In this document: positions 180-30,096 of the stretch, in pieces
How positions within the stretch are numbered: the first letter of the stretch is position 1
How the letters are laid out: the number at the start of each line of letters is the position of its first letter
Source: Candidatus Firestoneibacteriota bacterium
GTDB taxonomy: Bacteria > Oederibacteriota > D2-FULL-39-29 > CAIOVX01
Assembly (NCBI GenBank): GCA_903894145.1
Contig: CAITPB010000222.1
Span: forward strand, 1-32,933
DNA length: 32,933 nucleotides
Reading direction: 5' to 3'
Translations under genes and position numbers: made by a program
The notes under the pieces: model-generated
What the model was told of the DNA's origin: nothing
The model's database searches: none
Seen by the model: the letters and a program-made list of their open reading frames with translations, nothing else

Positions 180-1073
180 TTATTTAGTAAAATCCTCCGG
201 GCGTGACTTCCACCTATTATGCACCCAGAACCAGAGCGGCGGATACTTCCTGACATAACTTTCAAGCATTGAAGCCCACTTCTGGGTGTTGGCTTTGACA
301 TCCGCTTCAAAATCGCCCGTTGAATCTAGTTCTATCGCCTTTTCAACAACGGCCGTGTGCGTGCCGTCGGGATTCCTTACCATAAAAGTCATCAGGAGCG
401 GAGCGCCCGTCTTCATAGCGAGAACCGCGGGACCCTTCTTTGTTCCTGCAAGCCTTCCAAAAATATTCACGAACACGCCGTCAAACGCGGCGTCCTGGTC
501 AGCAAGCAACCCCACGCCTTCATTCTTCTTAAGCGTCCGGAGTATCTCCTTCACTGAGTCTCCGGTGTAAACTATTCTCAGCCCGTTAAGGGAGCGGTAC
601 TTGTTTATCAGCCGGTCCGTGTAAGGATTTGACTGCGGGAAAGCAACAGCCATACAGGGTACCAATTTCGGAAAGATAAGGCCGGATAGCTCCCAGTTGC
701 CGAAATGAGGGATTATCATTATAACGCCTTTGCCCCTAGCCCTTGCCTGCTCAAGAAGTTCTTTTCCCTCAACTTTCAAAAAACCTTCGTACTTCTTTCC
801 TTTTAGGGCCGGAATATACAGGAATTCCATTAGGGACATCCCGATGTTCTCAAACAGGGCGTCCATATAAGCCTCTATCTCGGCCGCGCTTTTGTCAGGA
901 AAAGACAAAGTCATGTTCTGCCTGGCAAGCGCGGTATGCTTTTTGTCAATTTTTTTAAGCAGCCTTCCCAGCGACCTTCCCAGCCCCTGCGCGGCTTTCA
1001 GAGGAATCCTTCGTACCAGGAACGCGGCTGCGATTACAAAGAGGAATTGTATGAACTGCCCCGCTTTTTTCAT
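180..1073 (-). CDS. lpxL: LpxL/HtrB-family lysophospholipid (lipid A) acyltransferase
   Basis: 297 aa; 'IPHFGNWELSG' HxxxxD/E-type acyltransferase motif, 'LLADQDA' motif; 4-nt overlap with lpxK. Confidence 0.87.
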   Translation of the reverse strand: MKKAGQFIQFLFVIAAAFLVRRIPLKAAQGLGRSLGRLLKKIDKKHTALARQNMTLSFPDKSAAEIEAYMDALFENIGMSLMEFLYIPALKGKKYEGFLKVEGKELLEQARARGKGVIMIIPHFGNWELSGLIFPKLVPCMAVAFPQSNPYTDRLINKYRSLNGLRIVYTGDSVKEILRTLKKNEGVGLLADQDAAFDGVFVNIFGRLAGTKKGPAVLAMKTGAPLLMTFMVRNPDGTHTAVVEKAIELDSTGDFEADVKANTQKWASMLESYVRKYPPLWFWVHNRWKSRPEDFTK

Positions 1074-2113
1074 TTCAATCCCAGCCTCTCGCGCAATTCT
1101 TCTTCTCCGGAAGTTATTTTTACCCCTATCCTAAGTTCTAAGGCGGGAAGCTCCGTCCCGGGCACGCCGGGAGAAACAAGTTTAACCGCGTCTTTCCCGG
1201 TGGTAACGATAAAGGCGCAGCCTGCGGCAAGCCTGTCAATTTTACTTATGTCCGAAACCGAATAATAATGATGGTCCCTGAAGCGGATGGGAACAATCTT
1301 TTCCGCGCCGAGAGCTGACACCATCATTTCAAAATATTCCGGATTGCCTACCCCGGAGAGCACCGCGACTCTTTTGCCCGATAGCGCCTCGAACCCGGGT
1401 GCTTTTTCTTTGCTCCTGATATTTACCAGCGCCTCCGGGGCGTAAACGCTCTTTATGACCAGGGCGCCCGGATTAATTCTCTTGACCCTCTTTTCAAGCC
1501 GGGCGGTGTCCGCCGCATCGCTCTTTGAGAGAATTATGATATCGGCCGCGCGAAGCGACCTGACCGGCTCCCTGAGAATTCCCGCCGGAAAGAGCAGCCC
1601 GTTTCCGAACGGGTTCAGAGAATCCACCAGCACGATGTCCAGATCCCTTGAAAGGGAAATCCGGCGCTGGAAACCGTCGTCAAGGAGCAGAACTTCTGAG
1701 GAATATTTTTCAATTGCGGCGAGTCCCGCAGAATACCTGTCTTTTGAGACTACCACAGGGGCGCCGGAAAGTTCGGAAGCCAGAAGGAATGGCTCGTCGC
1801 CGAGGGCTTCCGGGCTAAAATCTTCTTTTGAGAAAATAATTTTCCCTGAACTTTTTCTCGCGTAGCCCCTCGTGAGGACCGCGACGCTCTTTCCCTTAAG
1901 CAGTGAAGCGAGGTAGAGCACGTGGGGCGTTTTCCCAGTTCCCCCGAGCGTGATATTGCCCACGCTTATGACCGTTGCCGGCAGTTTTCTTTTTTTTAGG
2001 ATTGAAAGCGCGTAGAGCCGTTCTTTGAGCTTCAGCGCGGAAAAATAGATAAGCGAGACGGGAAAAAGCAGAAAAAGAGACGCCTTTATGAAATAACCCG
2101 GCAATCTTTTCAA
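1070..2113 (-). CDS. lpxK: Tetraacyldisaccharide 4'-kinase
   Basis: 347 aa; 'SVGNITLGGTGKTP' P-loop and 'LLLDDGFQRR' motif typical of LpxK. Confidence 0.95.
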   Translation of the reverse strand: MKRLPGYFIKASLFLLFPVSLIYFSALKLKERLYALSILKKRKLPATVISVGNITLGGTGKTPHVLYLASLLKGKSVAVLTRGYARKSSGKIIFSKEDFSPEALGDEPFLLASELSGAPVVVSKDRYSAGLAAIEKYSSEVLLLDDGFQRRISLSRDLDIVLVDSLNPFGNGLLFPAGILREPVRSLRAADIIILSKSDAADTARLEKRVKRINPGALVIKSVYAPEALVNIRSKEKAPGFEALSGKRVAVLSGVGNPEYFEMMVSALGAEKIVPIRFRDHHYYSVSDISKIDRLAAGCAFIVTTGKDAVKLVSPGVPGTELPALELRIGVKITSGEEELRERLGLK

Positions 2114-3384
2114 TTCAGCACCCTTTTTATCATATCAATGTTATTGTTTAGCGGGCCTTCGCGCGCAGCGATATATGCGGCGGCCGTTTCTCCTGCGTGC
2201 CCCGGCGTAAGTTTAAGCTCCGCGAGGAGTGCTCTGCCGAGCGCCGCCCCGTCAGACGCTTCAAACCCAAGGCCCGCTTTAATGAGCGAAGCGGCTATTT
2301 CCCTGTAATTCTCAGTGTATTTTCCGAAGAACGCGCGCCTTCCCAGGTAAAGCGGCTCCAGCAGGTTATGCCCGCCGATATTCGCAAGGCTGCCCCCCAC
2401 GAACGCTCCGCCGCAGAGTTCATAGGCTGCCGCGAGTTCTCCCATCGTATCCAGGAGGACGATATCCGCCGGTTTCCCGCCTTTAAGCGACGATCTTCTT
2501 GCGACCGTAAAACCCGAGGCCCTGAAAAGTTCCTCAAAAGCCGCGTTTTCCTGCATAAAACGCGGAGCAACGATGAAAGTAGTTTCCGGCAATTCCTTCC
2601 TCACGATAAATACCGCGGCCAGCAGTTCGCCGGCCTCGCTTTCGTGCACGCTCCCGGCCGTAATTACATTTTTCCTCAGATAAGGCGCCAGGTCGCTCTT
2701 CAGCCAGGACGAGCTTACCGGATCAGAAAGGAAAACTTCGAATTTTAAGTCTCCCGTGACGGTTGCGCGCCCGTTTTCAGGCAGGAGAATTCCAAGTCTT
2801 TGAAGATCCTCCGCGCCTCTCATGCCGAAAGCGTCAACCTGCTCCAGCATGCCTCTCATGAAACCTTTCGCAAAACGGTAGCGTCCGAACTTTTTGTCGG
2901 AAAATCTGCCGTTAACGACCGCGATCTTACCTCCCGACCTTTTGACGGCGTAAAAAAGGGAGGGCCACAACTCGGTCTCCGCCGCCACCAGCAGCGCCGG
3001 GCGTATCAGACTGACAACCGGCGAAACAAGAAATATTATATCCAGAGGCATATAGAATTTATGGATCTCCGGGGCGAACTTCTCGAGCATGCGCTTCCCG
3101 TTCAGAGTCGTGACTGAAAAAACGATATTCATATCCGGGTAGGCGGCTTTCAATTTTCTTGCCAGCGGAATCATGCATTTGCATTCCCCCGAGGAGGCGG
3201 CGTGCAGCCAGATGTTTCCGCGTTCCCCAAAGAAAGCTCTGAGCCCGGCCGGATAGACGGCAAGCCGCTGAAAAATGCCGTCCCTGACGCGCTCAGAAAA
3301 AACACAAAACACCGCCGCCGGCACTATGGCAATAACAGCGAGCAGGCAGACAAGCGCGTTATAGATAATAAGGTTTACCGGCAT
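2110..3384 (-). CDS. waaA: 3-deoxy-D-manno-octulosonic acid (Kdo) transferase, GT30
   Basis: 424 aa; 'WLHAASSGE', 'FSVTTLNGKRM', 'GGSLANIGGHNLLEPLYLGRRAFFGKYTENY' typical of KdtA/WaaA. Confidence 0.94.
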   Translation of the reverse strand: MPVNLIIYNALVCLLAVIAIVPAAVFCVFSERVRDGIFQRLAVYPAGLRAFFGERGNIWLHAASSGECKCMIPLARKLKAAYPDMNIVFSVTTLNGKRMLEKFAPEIHKFYMPLDIIFLVSPVVSLIRPALLVAAETELWPSLFYAVKRSGGKIAVVNGRFSDKKFGRYRFAKGFMRGMLEQVDAFGMRGAEDLQRLGILLPENGRATVTGDLKFEVFLSDPVSSSWLKSDLAPYLRKNVITAGSVHESEAGELLAAVFIVRKELPETTFIVAPRFMQENAAFEELFRASGFTVARRSSLKGGKPADIVLLDTMGELAAAYELCGGAFVGGSLANIGGHNLLEPLYLGRRAFFGKYTENYREIAASLIKAGLGFEASDGAALGRALLAELKLTPGHAGETAAAYIAAREGPLNNNIDMIKRVLN

Positions 3385-4022
3385 ATTTTTCCGGCTTCCA
3401 GGGTTACTCTGTCCATTTCAGCCTGAAGTTCCATTCTCTTCTCCTCCATAAGCTTTTCATCCGCTCCGGCCGGCACAGTTACGGGGTTTCCCCAGACAAA
3501 AACACCGCGTGAAAAAGGCAGAGGAATAATAAATTTATCCCAGCTGTTTATGACTATCTTCCTTGAGGCGTCAAACCCAAAAGGATAAACCGGCGCGCCG
3601 GATATCTTGGCTAGAACAATTGCCCCGCCCTTAACTTCTTCTCTCGGTCCTTTCGGCCCGTCCGGGGTAATTGCCGCGTCAGGCCCTTCAGCCAGGCCAC
3701 GTTTTAGGAGTATCAGCGCTTTTACTCCTTCCCTGGAAGAGGAACCGCGGACTGTCCCGTAGCCCAGTTTGTTCATAACCCTGCTGATATACTCTCCGTC
3801 CCTGCCCATGCTGACCAGACAGTTTATGCCCCTGTTCCTGTAGAAAAATACAGACATAAGTATGCGGCTGTGCCAGAAAGCGTAGATTGCGCGTCCGGAC
3901 TTTCTGTTTCTCGGAGAGAATTCGCGGTTGCCCGACTCGGTTATTCTCATAGTAGAACCGAGAATAAGGGTCAATACCCTTACCAGAAACGGCAATATGG
4001 ACATCAATAACTTTTCCTTCAA
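3375..4022 (-). CDS. DUF374-type lysophospholipid acyltransferase family protein
   Basis: 215 aa; 'IYAFWHSRILM', 'SREGVKALILLKRGLAEGPDAAITPDGPKGPREEVKGGAIVLAKISGAPVYPFGFDA'. Confidence 0.9.
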   Translation of the reverse strand: MKEKLLMSILPFLVRVLTLILGSTMRITESGNREFSPRNRKSGRAIYAFWHSRILMSVFFYRNRGINCLVSMGRDGEYISRVMNKLGYGTVRGSSSREGVKALILLKRGLAEGPDAAITPDGPKGPREEVKGGAIVLAKISGAPVYPFGFDASRKIVINSWDKFIIPLPFSRGVFVWGNPVTVPAGADEKLMEEKRMELQAEMDRVTLEAGKICR

Positions 4023-17508: not shown

Positions 17509-19311
17509 TTAGGTAAACATCATCGCATTTGCGAACTCATCCTGAAACCCCGGGTCCATCGACAGGTCAATATGCGCTACTTTTCCGGCAATTTCTTCCG
17601 CTTCTCTCAGGAAATCAACCGAGACAAGCGCTTTCCTCGCGCCTTCTTCGGCCGCGTTGCCGCAAAATTTAATTTTTTCTACGTTGACGCGAGGTATCAA
17701 ACCTATCGCAAGAGCCTTCTCGGCCCTGATATAATTTCCGAAAGCCCCGGCCATGAGAACTTCGTGTATTCCTTCCTCGGTGACTTTGAGCTGCTTCATC
17801 AAGATCCTGATTCCGGCCTGCATCGCGCCTTTCGCGAGCTGGATCTCCCTGACATCCCTCTGGTTAAGCGAGATCGCTTTGCCGGCAGACTCGGTGAAAA
17901 CAAACTCGTTGCCGTCGCTGTTCTCTATAATCCTGTCAGCTAAAGCCGGCAAAATGCCTTCCGAGAGCAGTTCCGCTTTATCCTTTATTCTTCCTGTCTC
18001 ATCCACTATCTTTTCTTCCACCAGCAAAGCCATCGCGTCTATAAGGCCGCTTCCGCAAAAACCCCGGGCAGGCGCGTTCTCTATGGTCTTTATCTCTATC
18101 CTCCCGCCCGAATAATCTATCTTTTCAATGGAACCGCTTGACGCCCTCATGCCGTAGCGTATATGCGCGCCCTCAAAGGCCGGGCCCGCGGCGCAGGACG
18201 CGGAGACCAGGGAATTCTTGTCTCCGAGGACTATTTCGCCGTTCGTCCCGATGTCTATCGCGAGTTTAATCTTCGAGCTCTTGTGAAGTTCCGTCGCCAG
18301 CACCACTCCTACCGTGTCCCCGCCCACCCAGCCGCCAATCACCGGAAAAACATTGACGAGAGCTTTCGGGTTGATGTTTATTCCAAACTCACGAGAACTC
18401 ACCTTATTGAGCTTGGGTCCAAGCTTGGATTCAAAAGGATAGACCGCGAGGCTCGCCGGGTCAACCTTTAACAGCAGGTGCTCCATAGTGGTGTTCCCGC
18501 AGAGCACCGCCTCGTAAATACCTTCAGGTTTTACTTCCGCGTCTGAACACACCTCGGCAATTATCTTGTTTAACACGCCGATCACTTTGTGGTTCAGATC
18601 GCGAAGCCCGTTCTCGCGCGTCACGCAAAAATTCAGCCTCGAGATTACATCGTCGCCGTAAACTATCTGGGCATTCATATCGGCCGAGGTGGCTTTCACC
18701 AGCCCGGTATTTAAATCCACGAGCGTGCCCACGATCGTTGTCGTGCCCACATCGAAAGCCATGCCGAAAAGCGACATTGTCGTATCGCCTTTTTCCACGC
18801 CAATCAAGCCATCGCCCGCCGCGACTATTGTGCACGCACCGCCGAATTTCTCCGCCAGCCCGTCAGTGTCTTTTACCGAATTCGCGGCAAGGGCCGACTT
18901 CACAGCTTTTTCCGGAAACCCTTCAGGCAGAGCTTTCCCCGGAGTAACCGCAATTTTCTTTACGCAGGGATTCAGGTAAGCCTGCGTCTGAACCCCAACT
19001 TCAAGAATCTTCTGAGTCTGAAGCTTGCTGGTTCTCGGCACCGAAACGACCGCGTCCGAAGTCAACTTTGACCTGCAGCCCAGCCTGACTCCCCGCGCAA
19101 GATCTTCCGCGGATATTTTTTCTTTCTCAATGTGGTCCGGCTCGCCCGCGCCGGAGGCCACTTCAACACGGCATTTCCCGCATTTTCCTACGGCCCCGCA
19201 AGGAATGTCTATATAGATTCCGGCTTCCAGAGCTGCCGCGGCAATAGTTATTCCCGAAGGAACGCTGATAGTTTTCCCGTCAGGCTGAAATTTTACTTTT
19301 ATTTTTGCCAT
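17509..19311 (-). CDS. 2Fe-2S ferredoxin-ASKHA domain protein (DUF4445; RACE-like corrinoid protein reductive activator)
   Basis: 600 aa; N-terminal 2Fe-2S 'CGAVGKCGKC...GC'; 'FDVGTTTIVGTLVDLNTG', 'LAIDIGTNGEIVLG', 'GFCGSGLIDAMALL' ASKHA motifs. Confidence 0.92.
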   Translation of the reverse strand: MAKIKVKFQPDGKTISVPSGITIAAAALEAGIYIDIPCGAVGKCGKCRVEVASGAGEPDHIEKEKISAEDLARGVRLGCRSKLTSDAVVSVPRTSKLQTQKILEVGVQTQAYLNPCVKKIAVTPGKALPEGFPEKAVKSALAANSVKDTDGLAEKFGGACTIVAAGDGLIGVEKGDTTMSLFGMAFDVGTTTIVGTLVDLNTGLVKATSADMNAQIVYGDDVISRLNFCVTRENGLRDLNHKVIGVLNKIIAEVCSDAEVKPEGIYEAVLCGNTTMEHLLLKVDPASLAVYPFESKLGPKLNKVSSREFGININPKALVNVFPVIGGWVGGDTVGVVLATELHKSSKIKLAIDIGTNGEIVLGDKNSLVSASCAAGPAFEGAHIRYGMRASSGSIEKIDYSGGRIEIKTIENAPARGFCGSGLIDAMALLVEEKIVDETGRIKDKAELLSEGILPALADRIIENSDGNEFVFTESAGKAISLNQRDVREIQLAKGAMQAGIRILMKQLKVTEEGIHEVLMAGAFGNYIRAEKALAIGLIPRVNVEKIKFCGNAAEEGARKALVSVDFLREAEEIAGKVAHIDLSMDPGFQDEFANAMMFT

Positions 19312-19516: not shown

Positions 19517-19546
19517 AAAGGCCGTTTCTTTCAGGAAACGGCCTTT
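19517..19546 (-). terminator. Intrinsic (Rho-independent) terminator of the M42/TPR-side transcript
   Basis: Perfect 12-bp stem AAAGGCCGTTTC-tttcag-GAAACGGCCTTT; minus strand continues into CTTTTTGTTTTTTGTTTTTTT. Confidence 0.9.
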
Positions 19547-19731: not shown

Positions 19732-20805
19732 CTAAATCAACGAGTTAACCGTGCGCTTATCAAGGACTTTTACAAGCTCTAAAAGGAGCTTTACGCTGTT
19801 TTCATAGTCATCAAGGTGAATTATTGACGCGTGGCTGTGAATATACCTGGTCGGCACTCCGATTACGAGAGAGGGCACGCCCCTGGAATGAAAATGAATA
19901 ACCCCTCCGTCCGTGGCGCCTCCCGGAAGCGCGGCAAACTGATAAGGTATCTTGTGTTTTTTTGCGGTTGCGACAGCGAGGTCGCGAAGCTTCGTATTGG
20001 GAATCATTCCTGCGTCAAGTATCTTTATAAAGGGGCCTTTGCCGAGTTTTCCCGGCATCTGATCCTGCGAGACCCCTGGCACATCGGCGGCAATGCCGAC
20101 CTCGGCTATCAGGCAGACATCAGGATTAACGACATTCGCGGAAGTCCTGGCCCCGCGAAGCCCGACCTCTTCCTGGACGGTGCCTACCCCGTAAACCGTG
20201 TTCGGGTGTTTAACCCCCTTTAAAGCCCTGATAACTTCCACGAAGAGAGCGCAGCCGGCGCGGTCATCAAGCGCCTTGGCAAGGATTGTTTTTCCGTTCC
20301 GCAATATCTGGAATTTACTGTCGGGAATTACCGGGTCTCCCGGGCGGATCCCGAACTCTTCCTCGGCCTCCGCTTTTGTAAGGGCGCCGACATCTATGAA
20401 CATATCTTTCTTCTCTACCATCTTTTTTATTTCTTCCGCGCCCATGATATGCGGCGGCTTAGATCCGACAATTCCAGGGACATCACCCTTGCAGGTCTTG
20501 ATGATTACGCGCTGAGAAAGAATGACTCCGTCATACCAGCCGCCAAGCGGGAGAAATCTGATAAATCCGTCGTCGGTGATATGCTTCACCATGAAACCTA
20601 TCTCGTCCATGTGCCCGGGTATCATTATTTTAGGGTCTTTCGAGGCACCTTCTTTTTTGAAAATTATACTGCCGAGGCGGTCGTTCTCAACGGAAGCGCT
20701 TCCTTTTAGCAATTTTTTGAGCAGTTCCTTAATCTCGGTCTCGTACCCGGAAACGCCGGACGATTCCGTAAGTTCTTTGAGCAGTTCAATGCTCTCTTTT
20801 CTCAT
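19732..20805 (-). CDS. M42 family metallopeptidase (aminopeptidase/endoglucanase-type)
   Basis: 'MIPGHMDEIGFMV', 'ALDDRAGCALFVEV', 'VQEEVGLRGA', 'PTRYIHSHASI'. Start set at MRKESIELLKELTESSG (20805) rather than the long upstream extension. Confidence 0.93.
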   Translation of the reverse strand: MRKESIELLKELTESSGVSGYETEIKELLKKLLKGSASVENDRLGSIIFKKEGASKDPKIMIPGHMDEIGFMVKHITDDGFIRFLPLGGWYDGVILSQRVIIKTCKGDVPGIVGSKPPHIMGAEEIKKMVEKKDMFIDVGALTKAEAEEEFGIRPGDPVIPDSKFQILRNGKTILAKALDDRAGCALFVEVIRALKGVKHPNTVYGVGTVQEEVGLRGARTSANVVNPDVCLIAEVGIAADVPGVSQDQMPGKLGKGPFIKILDAGMIPNTKLRDLAVATAKKHKIPYQFAALPGGATDGGVIHFHSRGVPSLVIGVPTRYIHSHASIIHLDDYENSVKLLLELVKVLDKRTVNSLI

Positions 20806-20864
20806 GTTGCTCCTCTTAAAGAAAAATTGGAAAACTTTTATTTGAGATAGCGGGCGGGAAAGAC

Positions 20865-21590
20865 TTAGGCTGTAAGCCTCATCAGGACACCTATCAGGAC
20901 AGCTGCGATTCCGCTGATTCTGTAATCCAGAACGCCCATCCTGCCGTTCTTCACCATCAGGTATCCCGAGACAAACATCGCCACCGGCAGGATATACGCG
21001 TACCACCCCAATGTCCCCGCGAGATATATGCCAAGCCCGATAGCGGCTCTCGAGCCGATGCCATAGTATTTCATCAGCAGACCCGGGAAGGTCACGCCTT
21101 CCTTCTTATCGCCCTTGATCGTTTTTTTGATGTATTCCTGCAGGACAAACATACCGTAAGTGAGTACTATCACCCAGATTGCCGCTATTACAAGTTTGTC
21201 GTTCGCGTAGAGCGCTTCAAGCCTCCCCGAGCAGAGCGGAAACGGAACCCGGACAACAGAGTCGCATCCGGCCGCGACAACGGCCGCGACGCTGACATGG
21301 AGGAACTGGTCAAAGAGGAAGGTCCAGAGATTGTTGCGCTCGACATGCAGGTTGATGATTATCTTGGCTTTATCCTGGAAAATATGAACAACCCAGGAGA
21401 TAATGAGAAAAGCGATGACGCTCTTATTGTGAAGATACGGAAGGGCGAAAAAGAAACCGGAGAGCCCGGCAATGCCGCCGTGCAGGAGCACGCCCCAGCT
21501 GTATTTTACTTTTATCTTGAATATCCCGTTCGTCTGAAGAAGAAAATCAGCCGTCAGGTGCGCAAGCAGAAGGCGTAAAAAAAGGAACAT
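20865..21590 (-). CDS. DUF3307 domain-containing membrane protein
   Basis: 241 aa; N-terminal 'LLLAHLTADFLLQTNGIFKIKVKYSWGVLLHGGI' typical of DUF3307; multiple hydrophobic segments. Confidence 0.83.
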   Translation of the reverse strand: MFLFLRLLLAHLTADFLLQTNGIFKIKVKYSWGVLLHGGIAGLSGFFFALPYLHNKSVIAFLIISWVVHIFQDKAKIIINLHVERNNLWTFLFDQFLHVSVAAVVAAGCDSVVRVPFPLCSGRLEALYANDKLVIAAIWVIVLTYGMFVLQEYIKKTIKGDKKEGVTFPGLLMKYYGIGSRAAIGLGIYLAGTLGWYAYILPVAMFVSGYLMVKNGRMGVLDYRISGIAAVLIGVLMRLTA

Positions 21591-21600
21591 TCTTAGCCCC

Positions 21601-23628
21601 CTAGTAAACTGACTTTACTTCTGATTCGGTAAAGTAATGGTTGAGGATATTCTTGTAACTGAAACCTTTTTCCGCCATCCCGGCCGCGCCGTCCTGGCAC
21701 ATCCCCACGCCGTGTCCAAAACCCGCGCCGTAGACAAAACTGCCCTCAAATTTCACCAAGTTGCTTCTTAAACCCGGAAGCACGGATCTTACGCGGTCCC
21801 CGGTAAATATTTGTTCACCGCGCCTTACTTCTTTAATATAACCAAAATTATCCCTTTTAACAACAATAATTTCCTTTTCCGGCTTCTCAAGTATCTTGAA
21901 CCAGCGGAAATGCCTGTCTTTCCTGCAGTAGGCTTCAGGTTCGGCTTTTATCCAGCGGTCCAGCATTTCCGGCGTTAAAGGCCATTCCAGGTAAAGACCT
22001 CTACCGGCTTCCAGCGGGAAATCCGGCCTGCCCTTGAAAGCCTTGTGCGGGTCGGAACGCCATACATCCTCGATATCTCTTGTGTGGCCGCCGCAGTTAG
22101 AGAAAAAGAAAGCTGTCAGCGTTTTTCCTCCGCAGAGCAGCACCTCTCCCCGCGTCGCGTCCACGGCTTCGCTAGTGCCTGGCGTTTCGTTTTGCACCCC
22201 GCTGTACGCCTGGCAATGCACATCCGCGCAGACATCGGCGTTGGGATGGGTTTTCATGCCGAACTTGCCGTAGGCGTAGCTTCTCGCGACAACGGCCTGC
22301 GCCTTTAGCGCTTCTATATTCGAAGAAGCGTTTATTTCTGACGGAACAACGCTGTACAGGTACTCGTCCAGGGGAAGCACGTTCACCAGAGTAAGTCCGT
22401 CATCCCCCACGGTAACTTCCAGCGCGCCCCTGTAGCTCCTGTCCTCGTTCTTTGACCAGAAGTACCCTTTATTAAGCGTGACATCGTAAATAGTGAAAGT
22501 GGAAGCGCCTCCGGGGTTCTCAAAAATCAGCGGAGTATCGCCTTTGAAGCGCTCCTTGATGAGTTCATTTCCGCCCGCGTCTTTAACCGAGAAGCTTCTG
22601 TTAGACGACCGTACGCGGATCTCCTGCTCAGGAAGAGCTGCTCCGGTAATCCTGCCGAAGAGCGAAAATTTCACGGCGCTGCCGCATTTTATCCTGAGAG
22701 AATCAACCCCGGAAACAAGCATCACCCTAATAACAGGGTTTTTGTCGCGGGCAGATATAGGGCGCACTTCCGGGCATTTATTAGCTTTCCGTCCGGCCTC
22801 CTGATAGTCTTCGTCGCTTTTTTTCTCCGAGGCCGGGATCTTCGCGGCAAGTTTTTTCAACCCCGCGGAAACTCCGGGATAACCCGGCTCTGACATTGAG
22901 AGCCTGCTCAGAGCCTCATAAGCGCCGCGAATATTTCCCTGCCGTTCCCGTATTCCGGCGATTTTAAAATTGAGAGGGTAGAGGCTCGAGTCCAGGCGGA
23001 GAACTTCGTTGTAAAGACTTACGGCGCGTTCCGCGTCTCCGGAAGCCGCGCACGCTTCCGCGAGCTTCTGCTTGACCGAAGCGGAAAACGGTTTCAGTTC
23101 AAGCGCGGAGGAAAAAAGAGTTTCCGCTTCTTTCGTTTTCCCGGCAGCTTCCGCGCAGCAGCCGGATACTACCAGCGCGTAAAACTTCACGAAATTTTCC
23201 TGGCCGGCCTCCGGAAATATCAGTTTCTCCGCGGCCGCCGAGGCTCCCTCATAGTTCCCGGACTGATAAAGGCATAAAGCGTAATTTAATTGCCTGAATC
23301 CGTCTTTCTTTAGTTCCAGCGAAGCCGCGTAGCATCCTGCGGCTTCGGAAAACCTGCCGGTGTCCTTATATAGACAGGCAAGATTGGCAAGCACCTCAGG
23401 GTCATTACTCGAGCTAAGAGACGCCCGGTATTTCTCTTCCGCCTCCCTGTATTCTCCGCGGTAATAACTGCTGTTGGCTTCCTTGAACAGCCTTTCAGAA
23501 TCGCTTTCTTTAATGACAGGCTTAGACGCGCAGGCCGAAAGAAGCAGCATGGATAAGGCTGACAGAACAACATATTTATTGCGGATTGGAGACATTTTGC
23601 CTTTGACGCGAATTTTCCGGAAGGTCAC
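21601..23628 (-). CDS. TPR-SpoIID/LytB domain lipoprotein
   Basis: 675 aa; lipobox 'MLLLSACAS', N-terminal TPRs, SpoIID core 'LPLDEYLYSVVPSEINASSNIEALKAQAVVARSYAY', 'FFFSNCGGHTRDIEDVW', 'GAGFGHGVGMCQDGAAGMA'. Start is GTG at 23628 (GTGA overlap with tonB) or ATG at 23595. Confidence 0.92.
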   Translation of the reverse strand: MTFRKIRVKGKMSPIRNKYVVLSALSMLLLSACASKPVIKESDSERLFKEANSSYYRGEYREAEEKYRASLSSSNDPEVLANLACLYKDTGRFSEAAGCYAASLELKKDGFRQLNYALCLYQSGNYEGASAAAEKLIFPEAGQENFVKFYALVVSGCCAEAAGKTKEAETLFSSALELKPFSASVKQKLAEACAASGDAERAVSLYNEVLRLDSSLYPLNFKIAGIRERQGNIRGAYEALSRLSMSEPGYPGVSAGLKKLAAKIPASEKKSDEDYQEAGRKANKCPEVRPISARDKNPVIRVMLVSGVDSLRIKCGSAVKFSLFGRITGAALPEQEIRVRSSNRSFSVKDAGGNELIKERFKGDTPLIFENPGGASTFTIYDVTLNKGYFWSKNEDRSYRGALEVTVGDDGLTLVNVLPLDEYLYSVVPSEINASSNIEALKAQAVVARSYAYGKFGMKTHPNADVCADVHCQAYSGVQNETPGTSEAVDATRGEVLLCGGKTLTAFFFSNCGGHTRDIEDVWRSDPHKAFKGRPDFPLEAGRGLYLEWPLTPEMLDRWIKAEPEAYCRKDRHFRWFKILEKPEKEIIVVKRDNFGYIKEVRRGEQIFTGDRVRSVLPGLRSNLVKFEGSFVYGAGFGHGVGMCQDGAAGMAEKGFSYKNILNHYFTESEVKSVY

Positions 23629-24365
23629 TTCTTGAGATTAAATTTGAAAGTTATCTTTCCTTCCTGATCAATCTGCCTGGCCGACAGCGGAAGAGAATCA
23701 AATTTCCATTTAGACATTCCGTCAGAAACAAGAAAGTCCATTTCTTTGAATCCGCAGGTCTTTATCACCATTACATCTTTCACATCGCCGCCCGGTTTTA
23801 CCGTGATCTGCACCTGCACGGCCCCCTCAATTCCCTGGCGCTTCGCCCACTCGGGGTAGCCCGGCATGAACTGCCGGATTATGCCGCGTGACGCTATAGG
23901 CCCGGAAATTTCAAGACTGCCGTCTGTCATCCCGGGATTTTCCGAATCCTCGCCGTACCCCCCGCCGAGCACAGGGCCTTCGAGCGGCCCGTCGGAATTT
24001 TTCATCGCGGACTCATCCATGCCTATCGGAGTTTCTTTGTGGAGTTTTACAATATCCTCATCAGACCTCCTGGCAACGGACTGCTTTGCCAGCGACCTTT
24101 TGGGCTTGGGCTTTGCCGCCAGCTTTTCCGGTTTCGCAGCCGTCTTTCCGCTCTTGGCGCCCGTATTTCCCGAGACATCACCCTTCTGCCCCAGCCCTTT
24201 GCCGTAAGGCATCTGGCCGAGCAGCGTCACCTCCGTGAGGTAAACGGATTTTCCCGCGTTTTGCCCGGCGATAACCCCTGCCAGCAGGAAGAGCAGCATC
24301 CCGTGAAAAAACAGGGATATAAGCAAAGTTCCGGATAATGTCCTGTCCTTTCTAAGAGCGTCCAT
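23625..24365 (-). CDS. tonB: TonB family energy transducer
   Basis: 246 aa; N-terminal TM, Lys/Pro-containing linker, C-terminal 'YPEWAKRQGIEGAVQVQITVKPGGDVKDVMVIKTCGFKEMD'. Confidence 0.92.
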   Translation of the reverse strand: MDALRKDRTLSGTLLISLFFHGMLLFLLAGVIAGQNAGKSVYLTEVTLLGQMPYGKGLGQKGDVSGNTGAKSGKTAAKPEKLAAKPKPKRSLAKQSVARRSDEDIVKLHKETPIGMDESAMKNSDGPLEGPVLGGGYGEDSENPGMTDGSLEISGPIASRGIIRQFMPGYPEWAKRQGIEGAVQVQITVKPGGDVKDVMVIKTCGFKEMDFLVSDGMSKWKFDSLPLSARQIDQEGKITFKFNLKK

Positions 24366-24374
24366 GCTTCTCCT

Positions 24375-24791
24375 CTATTTTACCGGTTCTTCCATTTTTT
24401 CCGCGGCAATCGCCATCTTGAGCGCGCCTGCTTTCTTCGCGGCATCCATCACCATTACGACAAAACCGTGGGACACGTCCTTATCCGCGTTTATTATGAC
24501 CGTCTTATCTTTCTCGAATTTCAGCATATCCTCAAGGAGCGGCTGGACGCTGTTCGCGTCAGTCGGCTTTTCGTTTATGAAAATCTTCCTGTCAACGGTT
24601 ATGGTCACAGTTATGTTCCTCTGGGGCGACGTGTCGGCGGTGACCGCCGAAGGCAGCTTCACGTTAATCCCGCCCTGGAGTATGAGCGGCGTGGTCACCA
24701 TGAAGATCACCAGCAGAACCAGCGCGACATCCGTAAGCGGCGTCACGTTGATCTCAGAGATTATTTTATGTTCAGGCCTGTATCTTCTCAT
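24375..24791 (-). CDS. exbD: ExbD/TolR family biopolymer transporter
   Basis: 138 aa; 'INVTPLTDVALVLLVIFMVTTPLI' with TM Asp. Confidence 0.95.
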   Translation of the reverse strand: MRRYRPEHKIISEINVTPLTDVALVLLVIFMVTTPLILQGGINVKLPSAVTADTSPQRNITVTITVDRKIFINEKPTDANSVQPLLEDMLKFEKDKTVIINADKDVSHGFVVMVMDAAKKAGALKMAIAAEKMEEPVK

Positions 24792-24805
24792 ATTTCCTCC
24801 GCACG

Positions 24806-25447
24806 CTACTTCTTGATGAGGTCTATGAATTCCGCCGCGGTATCGTCAAGATAGACCGTGACCTCGCGGACCGACCGCATGAAATAATTGTAAAAAACCA
24901 CGGAGATTACCGCCACAAAAAGCCCGGCCGCCGTGTTGACAAGCGCTTCGGAGATGCCTTTTGAAACCACCGACGCGCCCATGGCAGACTGCTGGGAGAT
25001 CGCGCCGAAGGCGTTTATAATCCCGAGAACGGTGCCGAAAAGCCCGATATAGAGAGATGTGTTGCCGATGGTTCCGACAATACCAAGGTTTTTTTCCAGC
25101 GCAACAAGCTCTTTGTCAACGGTTCTGTTTGCGAGTTCCGACAGGGACTCCTTGTCCATTTTATGCGAGAAAATAATGGTTTTCAGGACAGTCGTGAGCG
25201 GGCAGAGGGTCCTGAAGAAAAACCATTTCGCCTCAAAAGTGTCGCAGTAGGCGACCGCGTCGGATATTTTTCCGGCCATTATCAGGCTTCTGACCCGCGC
25301 TTTCACCTGCTCCAGCACTTTAGGCCTTATGCCGTAAAACACCTTAAGCCGTTCAATGATGACGGCGATGGAGATTACCGAACATATAAGAAGAACGACT
25401 ATTACTATGCCTCCGTGCTCAAGCATTTTCAGAAAACTCATATCCAT
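24806..25447 (-). CDS. exbB: MotA/TolQ/ExbB proton channel family protein
   Basis: 'LGIVGTIGNTSLYIGLFGTVLGIINAFGAIS', 'GISEALVNTAAGLFVAVISVVFYNYF'. Start set at 25447 (MDMSFLK) after AGGAGG RBS. Confidence 0.94.
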   Translation of the reverse strand: MDMSFLKMLEHGGIVIVVLLICSVISIAVIIERLKVFYGIRPKVLEQVKARVRSLIMAGKISDAVAYCDTFEAKWFFFRTLCPLTTVLKTIIFSHKMDKESLSELANRTVDKELVALEKNLGIVGTIGNTSLYIGLFGTVLGIINAFGAISQQSAMGASVVSKGISEALVNTAAGLFVAVISVVFYNYFMRSVREVTVYLDDTAAEFIDLIKK

Positions 25448-25538
25448 ACTGCCTCCTCTTTTCGCGCCGTTTTGGCGCATGGTCCTGTTATATTTGACAG
25501 CGCCGCCGGGCAAAAGTTCCGCCGGCTTTGCGCCGGGT

Positions 25539-27107
25539 CTAGAATTTCACATCCAGGCCGGCCGAAAGAAACGCGCCTGTCAGCGCCCTTCCTTTAATAA
25601 TCTCGGCATTCTGGTTTAGCAGGTTGTCCCCGGCCAGAAAAGCGGTGAATCCGCCGAAAAACTCTTTTGAAAGTTTCAGCCCGGCAAGCAGCCTGCCCGG
25701 CACCGTATCGGAATTTGTCTCGCTGTAATTCATCTCGCTCTTGTATTCTAATGTTGCCGTAAAATCCCAGCCGGAATCCGCGTACTCGCCGCGCAGGGCA
25801 ACCGCGTGCGCCGGCATGTAGGGCACGAATTTCCCCGGCTGGCTGTTGAGCGTGTTCATAAAAGTGTACTTGAGCGACTGCGTGAAGTTTTGGGAAAGTT
25901 TCCACTGCCCGCTGAAGTTCACGCCGGCAATTGAAACGCCGGAAATATTCACGGGACGAAGGACATCCGGCACAGGAGCGGTCTCCGTCTCATAGGTGAT
26001 CAGGTTCTCAACTTCCTTGCGGAAAATCTCAAGCGAGACCGGCAGGTCATTCGTTATCTTATGCTGCAGTCCCGTTGAGAGATAGAACCGGTCGTTCTCG
26101 GCGTTTAAACCTGAAGCGCGGTCCGCCGGCCTTTGGCCGTAGATTTCCGAGGCCCTGGGGAAGACCAGCCCCGGAGCATAGGAAGCGTAGAGAGTGGTTT
26201 CACCGTCAAGATCCACGCTTGCCGAAACTTCCGGATTGAGCCTGCACTGTTCATATTTAAGGCCAATATCAAGGAGCGCCGGATTAAGCTGAAATTTTGC
26301 AGACGCTGACAGTAAATATAACTGTCCAAATAGCGAATCGCTCCTGGCTTCCGCGGCCGCGGATCCCAACACCTTGTTGTTCTCCTGCTCTATCCTGAAA
26401 TCCCCGCCCAGGAAAAGATCCAGAAGGTTATCCGTGAGGCCGGTCTTTTCGAGAGTTGTCCTGGCGGCCCGGACTCCACCTTTTATTTTCAGGGCCGGCG
26501 AGATATTGCCGGAAAGCGTGAGATCTGTTTCAACCAGGCTGTCGCGGTATTCGTCCGCAGAGTAGCTTAACGAGGGGGAAGTCCGAAACGCCGAACCGGC
26601 CCGGTAAATAAACGAAAGCGAAGCGTCAAAGGCTTTATCAAACGAAGCGCTTATATCCAGGTTCAGAGCTCCCGCATTATAGCCGTTGTCGGATACATAA
26701 TAATTCCGAAGGTCCTTTTCCGCCTTCAAAAGCAGGCTGAGCCTGTCAAAACTTTCCCCATAGATAAGCTTGCCGTATAAAGAGGAAAAGGAACCATAGG
26801 CGGCAATCAGCTCTACCAGCCTTTTACTGCTCTGCTTGTTAACTTCAAGTTCAGGCGCGGAACTTTTCACATTGTCCAGATAGGGGCCCTTTATGAACTG
26901 CAGTTCCATAAGGGGAGTCTCTTTCGGAGGCAGGGGATAGTTTTCGGGGAGCAGGTCTTTCTTCTCCCCTCCGACCTTTATCTCGCTCTCTCCCGTAATA
27001 ACCACATCCGGAAGGACAAAGACCGGCTCGCGTTCTTTTTTCTCCATCTCCTGCGCAAAGCAGAATGCCGGAAGAAGGAGGGCTGTCAGAAATATTAGTT
27101 TTTTCAT
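25539..27107 (-). CDS. TonB-dependent-receptor-like outer membrane beta-barrel without an evident plug domain
   Basis: 522 aa; signal peptide, TonB-box-like 'LPDVVITGESEIKV', alternating barrel strands, C-terminal '...LSAGLDVKF'; 4-nt overlap with TPR gene. Confidence 0.8.
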   Translation of the reverse strand: MKKLIFLTALLLPAFCFAQEMEKKEREPVFVLPDVVITGESEIKVGGEKKDLLPENYPLPPKETPLMELQFIKGPYLDNVKSSAPELEVNKQSSKRLVELIAAYGSFSSLYGKLIYGESFDRLSLLLKAEKDLRNYYVSDNGYNAGALNLDISASFDKAFDASLSFIYRAGSAFRTSPSLSYSADEYRDSLVETDLTLSGNISPALKIKGGVRAARTTLEKTGLTDNLLDLFLGGDFRIEQENNKVLGSAAAEARSDSLFGQLYLLSASAKFQLNPALLDIGLKYEQCRLNPEVSASVDLDGETTLYASYAPGLVFPRASEIYGQRPADRASGLNAENDRFYLSTGLQHKITNDLPVSLEIFRKEVENLITYETETAPVPDVLRPVNISGVSIAGVNFSGQWKLSQNFTQSLKYTFMNTLNSQPGKFVPYMPAHAVALRGEYADSGWDFTATLEYKSEMNYSETNSDTVPGRLLAGLKLSKEFFGGFTAFLAGDNLLNQNAEIIKGRALTGAFLSAGLDVKF

Positions 27108-30037
27108 TTCTTTGTCCTCTCTCCCGTGACCTCTTCCGCGGGCACATTCTCATTCGTCGTATCGGCGGAAGGCGGCATTGCGCTCTTTAGCGCCTTGAGC
27201 CTCTTTTCCGCGGCGTCAGTCCACTCCTTTTTCCCGCCGGTTTTTATTATATCGTTGTATAGTTCCGCGGCCTTGTCTAATTTGCCGGACTTCTCAAAAC
27301 ATTCGGCGGCCCTGGCCTTGGCGGTAACCTTCCACATTCCCGAGGCATTCTCAACCGCGAGGACTTTCAGGTATTCGTCCGCGGCGGAATCCGTATCACC
27401 CTTCGAAAAGTAGCAGTTCCCTATCCAGTATTGGGCCTCCTGCGCTTTCGCGGGAAAATTCGCGGTGATGAACCTGTACGCCGCGATGGCCTTGTCAAAG
27501 TTCTTCTCATCCTCGTACATAACGCCAAGATCGAGAGCGGCATCCCTGGAAAGAGCGGATTTCGGAAACTCTTTCAGAATTCTCTCGTATCTGACGATTG
27601 CTTCGGCCTTCTTCTTCGCCTTCCGGAGAGAAAGGCCCGAGTTGAAAATTGCCGAGATTATGTATTCGCTTTTGGGGTATTTTTCCGCCACTTCGTCGTA
27701 TTCAGCCGCCGAGTCATCGTATCTTTCCAGGATATAATATATGTTGGCAATCTTAAAGAGGGCCTTCGGCGCCACCGTGGAAGAGGCAAATCTGTCGGCC
27801 GCCATCCGGAAACTTTCGACCGCCCTTCCGTTATCCTTCAATGCAAGCCAGGCTTCGCCTTTTGAATAGAGCGCCTCGGGAATCTTTGTTGATTCTGGGA
27901 AAGCGGCCATATAATTATCAAACTCGTCCACTGCCTGTTTAAATTTGCCGCTTTTTATATAGTAGCCTGCCAGTTTAAACTGCACTTCTTCGGAAAATTC
28001 TTCTTTCGGGAACTTCTTCAGGAAGTACCGCGAGATCTCCTCCGCTTTGTCGCTCTCGTCTGTGCGGGAATAGCACCAGGAGAGCCCGTAGAGCGAGTCA
28101 CGCTCGTACTTGGTGGCAGAGTAGGCTTTTCTGACTTCCTCGTAAAGCGCTATGGCTTTCTGATATTCCTGCAGGTTATACCACGAATCCGCGGCTTTAA
28201 GCAGGGCGTCCGGCACAAGGGTGTTCTGCGGATAAGCCTCCCTGACTTTCAGGAAATACTCCACCGCTTTCGAAAAATTGTCCTGCCTGAAGTACGAGAA
28301 TCCTATCCAGTAAACGCTGTCCGCCGTGTCCAGGCCTTCCCAAACCTTAACGGCCCCGGCAAAGTCATTCATGTTATAGAGACAACGGCCTATCTGGAAC
28401 AAGGTCCTGGCAATATCGCCTTTATCCGCCGGCTTCTCCAGCGCCTTTCGGTACGCCGCGCCCGCGGAAGCATAATCTTTCAGGTTGTAAAATGACGAGC
28501 CCGCCATATTGAGAGCTTCAAACGCCAGTTCGGGAACTTTTTCGTCCTCTGCAACTCCCTTAAACTCCGCGATGGCCTGAGTGAATTTTTTCTGAGAATA
28601 ATGGCACCAGGCCGTGCCGAGCCTGGACATTGGAGTGAATTTCGAGTCCCGGTACGCCGAGACGGCTTTGCTGTAGGCTGCAATAGCATTGTCATAATCT
28701 TTCAGCGCGTAGAAAGTCTCGCCCAAACGGAATTGCGCTTCGGCCGCTCTCGGGCTTAACGGGTATTTTGCGAGCAGTTTGTTGAAATTTTCCCTGGCAA
28801 ATCCGAAAAGTTTCAGTTTATAGTCGCACCAGGCGACAAAATAAACGGAATCCGGCGCGAACTCGCTTTCAGGGAATTCCTTAAAGAGCTTGTCGTAAAT
28901 GGTTTTCGCGTCCTCCAGCCTGCCTATGGCGTAATATGAGTTCCCGGTCAGGTAAAGGGAATTGGCCCGAAGCGACGGCGGCACTTTCTCTTTGTTTACA
29001 GCCCCGAGCTGTTTTATGGCCTCCCAGTACTTCTGCTGTTTGTAATAGCACCACGCCAGTCCGTACCTCGCGCGGTTTGTTATCTCCCCCGCGCTGCCAG
29101 GTTTCTCGGCAACTCCCGCAAAATATTTGACCGCGTTATTGAAATTGCCGAGCGTTATATTTGTTATGCCGAGCCGGTAAAGCACTTCATTCTTAAGCGC
29201 GCTCTTGTCGAAGGCCGCCAGGAAGGAGTCAAAAACCGTGTCAGCGGACTGAAAGTCTTTTATTTTATAGTAACACTCGCCGAGGCGGTAGGTTGCCGCG
29301 TCCGCGTATTTACTTGCGGGAGCCTTTTTAGCGAAATCCTTGAAGGCAATGATAGCTTCGTAATATTCGCCGGAGTGATAAAGCGACTCCCCCTTCCAGA
29401 AAAGCGCCGTATCCGCAAGCGGGCTGGACTTGAATTTTGTGTTGAGCTCGGAGAAAGCCCCGGAAGCCCTGTAATAGTTGCCAAGTTTAAAATAGCACCA
29501 GCCCGCCGAATAGCAGGCATAATCCGCGGATCTGTAGTCGCCAAAATCACGGCTTACCGTTTCATAGGCGATAGCCGCGTTCTCGAACTCGCCGCCGTTA
29601 AAATAGGCTTCGGCCGTCCAAAAATTCGCGTCGGCCGCCAGATAGGTCTTAGGATTCTTGTCGAGGAGGCTCTTGAAAGCTTCTTCCGAGCCGGAATAAT
29701 CTTTAAGCCTGAACAAACACTCCCCTATCCGGTACATCACGGTATCCCGGTAATCAAGAGAGCTGTACCGCTCAAGCACGGTCTTGTATTCCGGCACGGC
29801 TTTCTCGTACTCACCCTGCTTATAGAAGCATTCGGCAGTCATATAAGCCGCATCACCGCACTCGCGGCTGTCGGGATACGCGGAGATTATTTTCTGGAAT
29901 TGCTCCACAGCGAAATTATAATTGGCGTTCTTGTAGAGATCATAGGCAAATTTATAGAGTTCTGAAGAGGAAACCTGGGAAAAGAGCAGCACAGGCAAGA
30001 GAATTGAAAGCAATGTAATCAATATCTTTCGGCCCAT
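27104..30037 (-). CDS. Large secreted tetratricopeptide-repeat protein
   Basis: 977 aa; signal peptide MGRKILITLLSILLPVLLFSQ; many tandem TPR/YbgF-like units (e.g. 'YRLGECYYKIKDFQSAD', 'AEAYFNGGEFENAAIAYE'). Confidence 0.93.
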   Translation of the reverse strand: MGRKILITLLSILLPVLLFSQVSSSELYKFAYDLYKNANYNFAVEQFQKIISAYPDSRECGDAAYMTAECFYKQGEYEKAVPEYKTVLERYSSLDYRDTVMYRIGECLFRLKDYSGSEEAFKSLLDKNPKTYLAADANFWTAEAYFNGGEFENAAIAYETVSRDFGDYRSADYACYSAGWCYFKLGNYYRASGAFSELNTKFKSSPLADTALFWKGESLYHSGEYYEAIIAFKDFAKKAPASKYADAATYRLGECYYKIKDFQSADTVFDSFLAAFDKSALKNEVLYRLGITNITLGNFNNAVKYFAGVAEKPGSAGEITNRARYGLAWCYYKQQKYWEAIKQLGAVNKEKVPPSLRANSLYLTGNSYYAIGRLEDAKTIYDKLFKEFPESEFAPDSVYFVAWCDYKLKLFGFARENFNKLLAKYPLSPRAAEAQFRLGETFYALKDYDNAIAAYSKAVSAYRDSKFTPMSRLGTAWCHYSQKKFTQAIAEFKGVAEDEKVPELAFEALNMAGSSFYNLKDYASAGAAYRKALEKPADKGDIARTLFQIGRCLYNMNDFAGAVKVWEGLDTADSVYWIGFSYFRQDNFSKAVEYFLKVREAYPQNTLVPDALLKAADSWYNLQEYQKAIALYEEVRKAYSATKYERDSLYGLSWCYSRTDESDKAEEISRYFLKKFPKEEFSEEVQFKLAGYYIKSGKFKQAVDEFDNYMAAFPESTKIPEALYSKGEAWLALKDNGRAVESFRMAADRFASSTVAPKALFKIANIYYILERYDDSAAEYDEVAEKYPKSEYIISAIFNSGLSLRKAKKKAEAIVRYERILKEFPKSALSRDAALDLGVMYEDEKNFDKAIAAYRFITANFPAKAQEAQYWIGNCYFSKGDTDSAADEYLKVLAVENASGMWKVTAKARAAECFEKSGKLDKAAELYNDIIKTGGKKEWTDAAEKRLKALKSAMPPSADTTNENVPAEEVTGERTKK

Positions 30038-30067: not shown

Positions 30068-30096
30068 ATTATATAACAATAAGCCGCTGATTTCAA
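30068..30096 (-). promoter_or_regulatory. Sigma70-like promoter for the TPR/TonB operon
   Basis: Minus strand TTGAAA-N17-TATAAT; ends 31 nt upstream of the start codon at 30037, which is preceded by AAAGGGGC RBS. Confidence 0.75.

Follow-up and report, generated by a model that had tools for sequence, protein, structure and literature searches.

A plugless barrel of the TonB-dependent receptor type, encoded with its own ExbB-ExbD-TonB motor and a giant TPR protein in Candidatus Firestoneibacteriota: a possible energised link between outer membrane and cell wall

We analyse a 32,933-nucleotide stretch of DNA (contig CAITPB010000222.1, referred to in its whole length as the window) from the 1.88-Mb metagenome-assembled genome of a Candidatus Firestoneibacteriota bacterium, where a giant tetratricopeptide-repeat (TPR) protein, an outer-membrane barrel, ExbB, ExbD and TonB are encoded in this order on the minus strand. 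As judged from profiles and structure models, the barrel is a full-size receptor barrel of the TonB-dependent receptor (TBDR) type without its gate, the plug domain, and the five genes constitute the conserved core of a module that recurs across the phylum (Firestonebacteria, FCPU426 and Goldiibacteriota, treated as one in all counts). We propose that the module may be a dedicated trans-envelope machine driven by proton-motive force, in which TonB pulls the plugless barrel and in this way couples the outer membrane to the cell wall, a function like that of Tol-Pal in a system that is not a member of Tol-Pal; we give this reading a probability of about 0.45. The anatomy, i.e., the gene set and the barrel without a plug, is near certain; from it we infer the binding of TonB to the tail of the barrel, the scaffolding by the TPR protein and the function as a tether. 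The features of the core are as follows.

27104..30037, minus strand: giant exported TPR protein, 977 amino acids, CpoB/BamD-type repeats (Pfam TPR_6, E=8e-96)
25539..27107, minus strand: predicted plugless TBDR-type outer-membrane barrel, 522 amino acids, 22 strands (PF00593, E=4.5e-18, without PF07715; AlphaFold2; Foldseek to BtuB)
26829..27050, minus strand: barrel residues 20-93, predicted disordered tail, more conserved than the rest of the protein (predicted local distance difference test score, pLDDT, below 50 at residues 18-93)
26988..27014, minus strand: TonB-box-like motif LPDVVITGE, barrel residues 32-40 (P28, P33, V36 and G39 invariant in A1; equivalent motifs in all families)
24806..25447, minus strand: ExbB, 213 amino acids, ATG start (PF01618, E=2e-30)
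24375..24791, minus strand: ExbD (PF02472, E=2e-30)
23625..24365, minus strand: dedicated TonB of a module-specific subtype (PF03544, E=1e-11)

The barrel had been described as short in the initial annotation, which was made from the sequence of the window. By contrast, the AlphaFold2 model, calculated from an alignment with 23 homologues (mean pLDDT 75.5), has 22 strands between residues 96 and 521, and the separate AlphaFold2 model of a homologue from outside the phylum again has 22 strands together with a disordered tail at residues 20-88, with the two models being not fully independent since most alignment sequences are common to both. In Foldseek the best match of the barrel model is BtuB (E=1e-18). 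While the TBDR barrel model PF00593 is matched, the plug model is not, and none of the 23 homologues matches the plug family PF07715 even at E<=1. The plug is not provided by a separate gene either: the genome has only two PF07715 matches, both inside ordinary TBDR genes elsewhere. Of the hallmarks of a TonB-dependent transporter, the 22 strands are found and the PF07715 plug is absent. It had also been stated that this is the only barrel present, which holds within the operon but not in the genome, where two plug-bearing TBDRs and a second TonB lie outside the operon.

The pairwise ratios of nonsynonymous to synonymous substitution rates (dN/dS) are 0.05-0.12 for the barrel and 0.03-0.12 over the barrel, TPR, ExbB, ExbD and TonB genes, the values being rough because some dS values are near saturation; from these ratios it is concluded that the five genes are not decaying. 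A decayed standard TBDR, which had been named as one of the findings that would overturn the initial annotation, is ruled out by the dN/dS of the barrel, the absence of the plug in every homologue and the hyper-conserved tail with its TonB-box-like motif.

The tail, of about 75 residues, is predicted by AlphaFold2 to be unstructured. Between the window's family (f1) and its sister family (f2), tail residues 22-80 are 75% identical whereas the barrel is 30% identical. A disordered tail that is more conserved than the folded domain would look like what is expected of a TonB binding site, and perhaps of a site for the TPR protein too. Comparable motifs, roughly hydrophobic-P-x-hydrophobic-x-[V/I]-x-G, recur in the barrel tails of the families examined within the phylum and beyond it, and an ordinary TBDR of the same genome has LDEVVVTGT at the corresponding position. 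The motif, being present and conserved, is a candidate TonB box, at which TonB would bind.

The motor proteins match PF01618, PF02472 and PF03544 above the gathering scores, which places the module, as judged by its motor and its TonB, in the Ton/Tol motor family. The models on which ExbB and ExbD score best are those of TolQ and TolR, yet the scores are below the cut-offs of these models. The TonB of the module can be recognised as a subtype all the way from the membrane helix to the C-terminal domain, with His21 invariant in 27 module TonBs; its profile has full-length matches within the phylum and in a few of about 340 other sampled genomes. In the tree of ExbB, the grouping of the phylum's families is the one that vertical descent would give, with a barrel-less type of the phylum grouping apart, and the genomes outside the phylum form one group, which also includes an ordinary receptor-linked ExbB. 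A single ancient origin of the module would be compatible with this tree, rather than demonstrated by it.

The comparison of gene neighbourhoods that the initial annotation had suggested was made by running the component profiles on loci from 45 genomes of the phylum. All five genes in the same order are found in 34 of the 45, a count that includes one genome (G011) where the barrel is recognised from a 641-residue frame with the motif and two genomes with inserted genes between barrel and ExbB. Ten other genomes have linked parts only, mostly cut by contig ends; one (G004) is truly split into two loci, so that the TPR-barrel pair and the motor genes lie apart. Between the pair and the motor genes of G005 and G007 there are intervening genes. 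In most families the barrel is only 15-20% identical to that of the window, and because the order is kept at such identity we regard it as an old, selected feature; on the gene content of these loci, the conservation of the core order is far beyond chance. Outside the phylum the complete set is found in four genomes (G251, G050, G337 and G364) and probably in G115 and G166, with the order conserved in at least three families there. The earlier view of a dedicated, self-contained energised module is therefore well supported by the order conserved across the phylum and in these outside families, an order not kept in relatives having been named at the outset as a finding that would refute it. A scan of named genomes with a narrow pattern gave matches among phylum members only, the named genomes being metagenome-assembled, and the gene set is not described in the open-licence literature searched. 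A gene for a ClpC-type ATPase lies directly upstream of the TPR-barrel pair in G190 (L114:1520-7005) and G082 (L116:1330-6188), which are both outside the phylum and belong to different families.

In the window the core belongs to a series of eight minus-strand genes running from 30037 down to 19732, in the order TPR giant, barrel, ExbB, ExbD, TonB, TPR-SpoIID lipoprotein, DUF3307 and M42, each with its identity backed by Pfam/NCBIfam profile matches. The remaining features are as follows.

30068..30096, minus strand: promoter TTGAAA-17-TATAAT, 5' of the TPR gene (11 of 12 positions match the consensus; conserved in 4 of 4 genomes of the genus)
21601..23628, minus strand: TPR-SpoIID lipoprotein, 675 amino acids, lipobox LLSAC (PF08486, E=2e-28; TIGR02669)
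20865..21590, minus strand: DUF3307 membrane protein (PF11750; operon member in the genus only, not conserved in f2)
19732..20805, minus strand: M42 aminopeptidase (PF05343; operon member in the genus only)
19517..19546, minus strand: strong intrinsic terminator with a 12-bp stem, 3' of the M42 gene (a similar GGCC-rich hairpin and T run in two relatives)

The intergenic gaps are short or negative, with a 4-nt overlap of the TPR and barrel genes and with the TonB stop overlapping the GTG start of the SpoIID gene. Two starts differ from the mechanical open-reading-frame starts: that of ExbB is probably ATG 25447, supported by relatives and by GGAGG before the ATG, and that of M42 is probably ATG 20805, taken from relatives. 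The gene content, order, overlaps, promoter and terminator described in the initial annotation are reproduced here, with the genes at about the coordinates given there and with the promoter and terminator conserved in the genus. The eight genes, read there as co-transcribed, would form an operon in the genus, while beyond it DUF3307 and M42 are not members, which rules them out as parts of the core. Just downstream of the operon, at window positions 17509-19311, lies a gene for a RACo-type corrinoid activation protein, a position that is kept in the genus.

The TPR giant is the conserved partner of the barrel across relatives. Thirteen stretches of it match tol_pal_ybgF (TIGR02795) above the cut-off, a match that does not establish orthology to CpoB, as the protein is about four times longer than a CpoB-type protein and consists of repeats only. 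As for the companions outside the core, the SpoIID gene comes immediately after TonB in f1 and f2, and in f3 and f9 it is found about 3 kb downstream; f7, f11, f13 and f14 have the gene for a LysM protein rich in proline immediately upstream of the TPR gene; and in genus g20 a Pal-like OmpA lipoprotein is encoded directly upstream, preceded in two of the three genomes by a LysM lipoprotein. No gene for a substrate, synthase, solute-binding protein or transporter recurs beside the core among the loci examined. Envelope polymer or glycan handling, the role suggested initially, finds no support in these neighbourhoods; the recurrent companions deal with peptidoglycan and would point to coupling of the outer membrane and the cell wall.

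The envelope context is as follows. Lipid A and Kdo genes are present at window positions 180-4022, from which we conclude that the genus has an outer membrane with lipopolysaccharide. Proteins with OmpA domains and with SLH domains are two widespread known tethers. In four genomes of the genus, one of them 98% complete, neither an OmpA domain (PF00691) nor an SLH domain is found. A tether of the OmpM type (SLH domain plus barrel) is not what we have here, with no SLH domain in the genus. Over the phylum, OmpA-domain proteins are wholly absent in G000-G003 and also in G005, G006 and G007, while other families have up to 19 each. TolB_N is not found in f3 and f7-f16, and the module contains no TolB. 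The best TolB_N match in the window's own genome is a 497-residue protein (C266, L129:394-1887) with a TolB_N-like domain and a barrel-like C-terminus, which resembles the OMP-TolB-like family of PMC12204202, proposed as the ancestor of TolB.

The mechanism that we favour can be described as follows. According to PMC12204202, ExbB-ExbD motors move TonB, which attaches to its target through strand addition by its C-terminal domain. In the module, ExbB-ExbD would be a proton motor driving its own TonB, the C-terminal domain of which would bind the barrel at the TonB box of its long disordered tail. With no plug to be pulled out, the work would go into the barrel and the surrounding membrane, the barrel serving as an outer-membrane anchor. 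The giant CpoB-like TPR protein would be a periplasmic scaffold that couples the pulling to the wall via partners binding or cutting peptidoglycan, which may be the SpoIID lipoprotein in the window and LysM or Pal-like OmpA proteins in relatives. The machine would probably use energy to attach the outer membrane to peptidoglycan and to remodel it there, i.e., do a job like that of Tol-Pal with an output of the Ton type. A bolder version, which we hold to be doubtful, is that the module represents an undescribed class of energised tether between outer membrane and cell wall, in which a TBDR barrel with neither plug nor transport role is an anchor pulled by a dedicated TonB motor, which is ancestral to the whole phylum and which, in genomes without OmpA/Pal and OmpM-type proteins, is the one tether that can be recognised.

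Several points weigh against coupling to the wall. An open 22-strand barrel, as modelled, would leak unless it is filled, which fits a channel too, and the tail could bind the TPR protein rather than TonB. The genomes of f8 other than g20, and f12, have no peptidoglycan-linked neighbour, and the argument from neighbours is post hoc and varies by family. Moreover, most other families keep many OmpA-domain proteins alongside the module, so that it is not simply a replacement for them. The gene evidence cannot cleanly separate an anchor from an energised channel. Such a channel, the main rival, would be a wide pore through the outer membrane that either the tail of the barrel or the TPR protein gates or fills, with TonB removing the filler for export or import of a large substrate (protein, glycan or lipid). 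This is possible, though we consider it improbable on balance: in both models the empty 22-strand barrel needs a filler and a TPR protein with a barrel is a known export pairing, while the recurrent companions act on or bind peptidoglycan and nothing resembling a substrate, synthase or transporter recurs beside the core. The Oar-type receptors that could serve as its precedent are regarded as plugged. That precedent is the TonB-dependent transporter Oar, reported to be required for PopC secretion in Myxococcus (PMC6434023). Uptake of nutrients by an unusual TonB-dependent transporter, in which a lid formed by the TPR protein replaces the lost plug, would account for the homology of the barrel to BtuB-type receptors, for the TonB-box-like motif and for the adjoining M42 peptidase in the genus; it is nevertheless unlikely, given that the plug is absent in all homologues, that M42 is not conserved outside the genus, that the genome also has ordinary plugged TBDRs and a second TonB and that no inner-membrane transporter is linked.

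Slightly less likely still is a machine for surface adhesion or gliding, in which motor, TPR protein and barrel move or display surface structures as in Agl-Glt of Myxococcus or in the OmpA-TPR-ExbB-ExbD-TonB cluster of Fibrobacter. The parts lists are similar (PMC3169522; PMC6851124), and a barrel-less TPR-ExbB-ExbD-TonB system is also present in the phylum; by contrast, the set has a single ExbD, no FHA domain, a barrel of the TBDR type and no surface adhesin conserved beside it. Agl-Glt, to which the initial annotation had linked the module, shares with it a motor driven by proton-motive force, TPR proteins, a TonB-like protein and outer-membrane proteins, but it has two TolR proteins, an FHA-TonB protein and outer-membrane proteins of only 209-275 amino acids (PMC3169522), so that a close link is not supported. 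With the GltC and GltE models also scoring far below cut-off on the module proteins, the module is not a member of Agl-Glt. Finally, that an ordinary Ton motor merely happens to be inherited beside an unrelated TPR-barrel pair would explain the separation of motor and pair in G004 and the intervening genes in G005 and G007, and yet it is very improbable in view of the order kept in 34 of the 45 genomes down to 15-20% barrel identity and again outside the phylum, and of the joint conservation of the TonB-box motif and a dedicated TonB subtype.

Returning to wall coupling, we compare the module with the known systems. With the Ton system and its TonB-dependent transporters such as BtuB it shares the 22-strand barrel, the TonB-box-like motif and ExbB-ExbD-TonB, and it differs in having no plug, in its dedicated giant TPR partner and in neighbours linked to peptidoglycan rather than to nutrients. 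With Tol-Pal it shares a motor, a transducer, CpoB-like TPR repeats and peptidoglycan-linked partners, including the Pal-like lipoprotein beside the module in g20; unlike Tol-Pal, it has neither TolB nor Pal, its transducer ends in a TonB domain and the barrel stands in the place of Pal. Canonical Tol-Pal is ruled out, as the genus lacks Pal and the module lacks TolB. The exporters AlgK-AlgE, PgaA and BcsC likewise pair a TPR scaffold with an outer-membrane barrel, but they have no TonB box or motor and are tied to a synthase, and TPR-barrel polysaccharide exporters have barrels of 16-18 strands. Polysaccharide export is rejected, since no synthase recurs with the core and the barrel, at 22 strands, is of the wrong size.

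To our knowledge, the Ton systems that have been characterised work on transporters with a plug, and the Tol systems on Pal. If the proposed reading is true, the Ton/Tol motor family would have one more output, namely the action of a motor driven by proton-motive force on a barrel that has no plug. This would be relevant to how the outer membrane is held in diderm lineages that lack Pal, OmpA or OmpM, and to the origin of Tol-like functions from Ton. The prediction that TonB binds the tail is a specific one.

Related arrangements of TPR and motor genes have been described elsewhere. In PVC bacteria, as reported in PMC12204202, clusters of TPR, TolQ, two TolR and a vWA transducer resemble the module in that a TPR gene adjoins a motor and an uncharacterised transducer, and differ in having vWA instead of the TonB C-terminal domain, two TolR genes and no reported barrel. 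The same 2025 survey of force transducers presents variants of the vWA and PorE types and anticipates further systems of this kind; in the sections examined, the present set is not described. The Fibrobacter cluster FSU_2396-2403 (OmpA, TPR, TPR, ExbB, ExbD, ExbD, TonB; PMC6851124) is alike in clustering TPR genes with a Ton-type motor, there with OmpA; with two ExbD and no barrel described, it is closer to the second, barrel-less system of the phylum, which it resembles. This second system consists of a giant TPR protein, ExbB, ExbD (sometimes two) and a longer TonB of 306-415 amino acids (L170, L171, L172, L174 and L175; G005, G013, G015 and G037). The genome of the window itself (C245, L057:3608-5901) has a second ExbB-ExbD pair followed by a 401-residue protein with a TonB-like membrane helix and no recognised C-terminal domain, an arrangement that is kept in G002 (L173). 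A SIMPL-like reading of this second transducer (P0003), made by eye, has no Pfam support; it is possible that the protein is an unusual force transducer.

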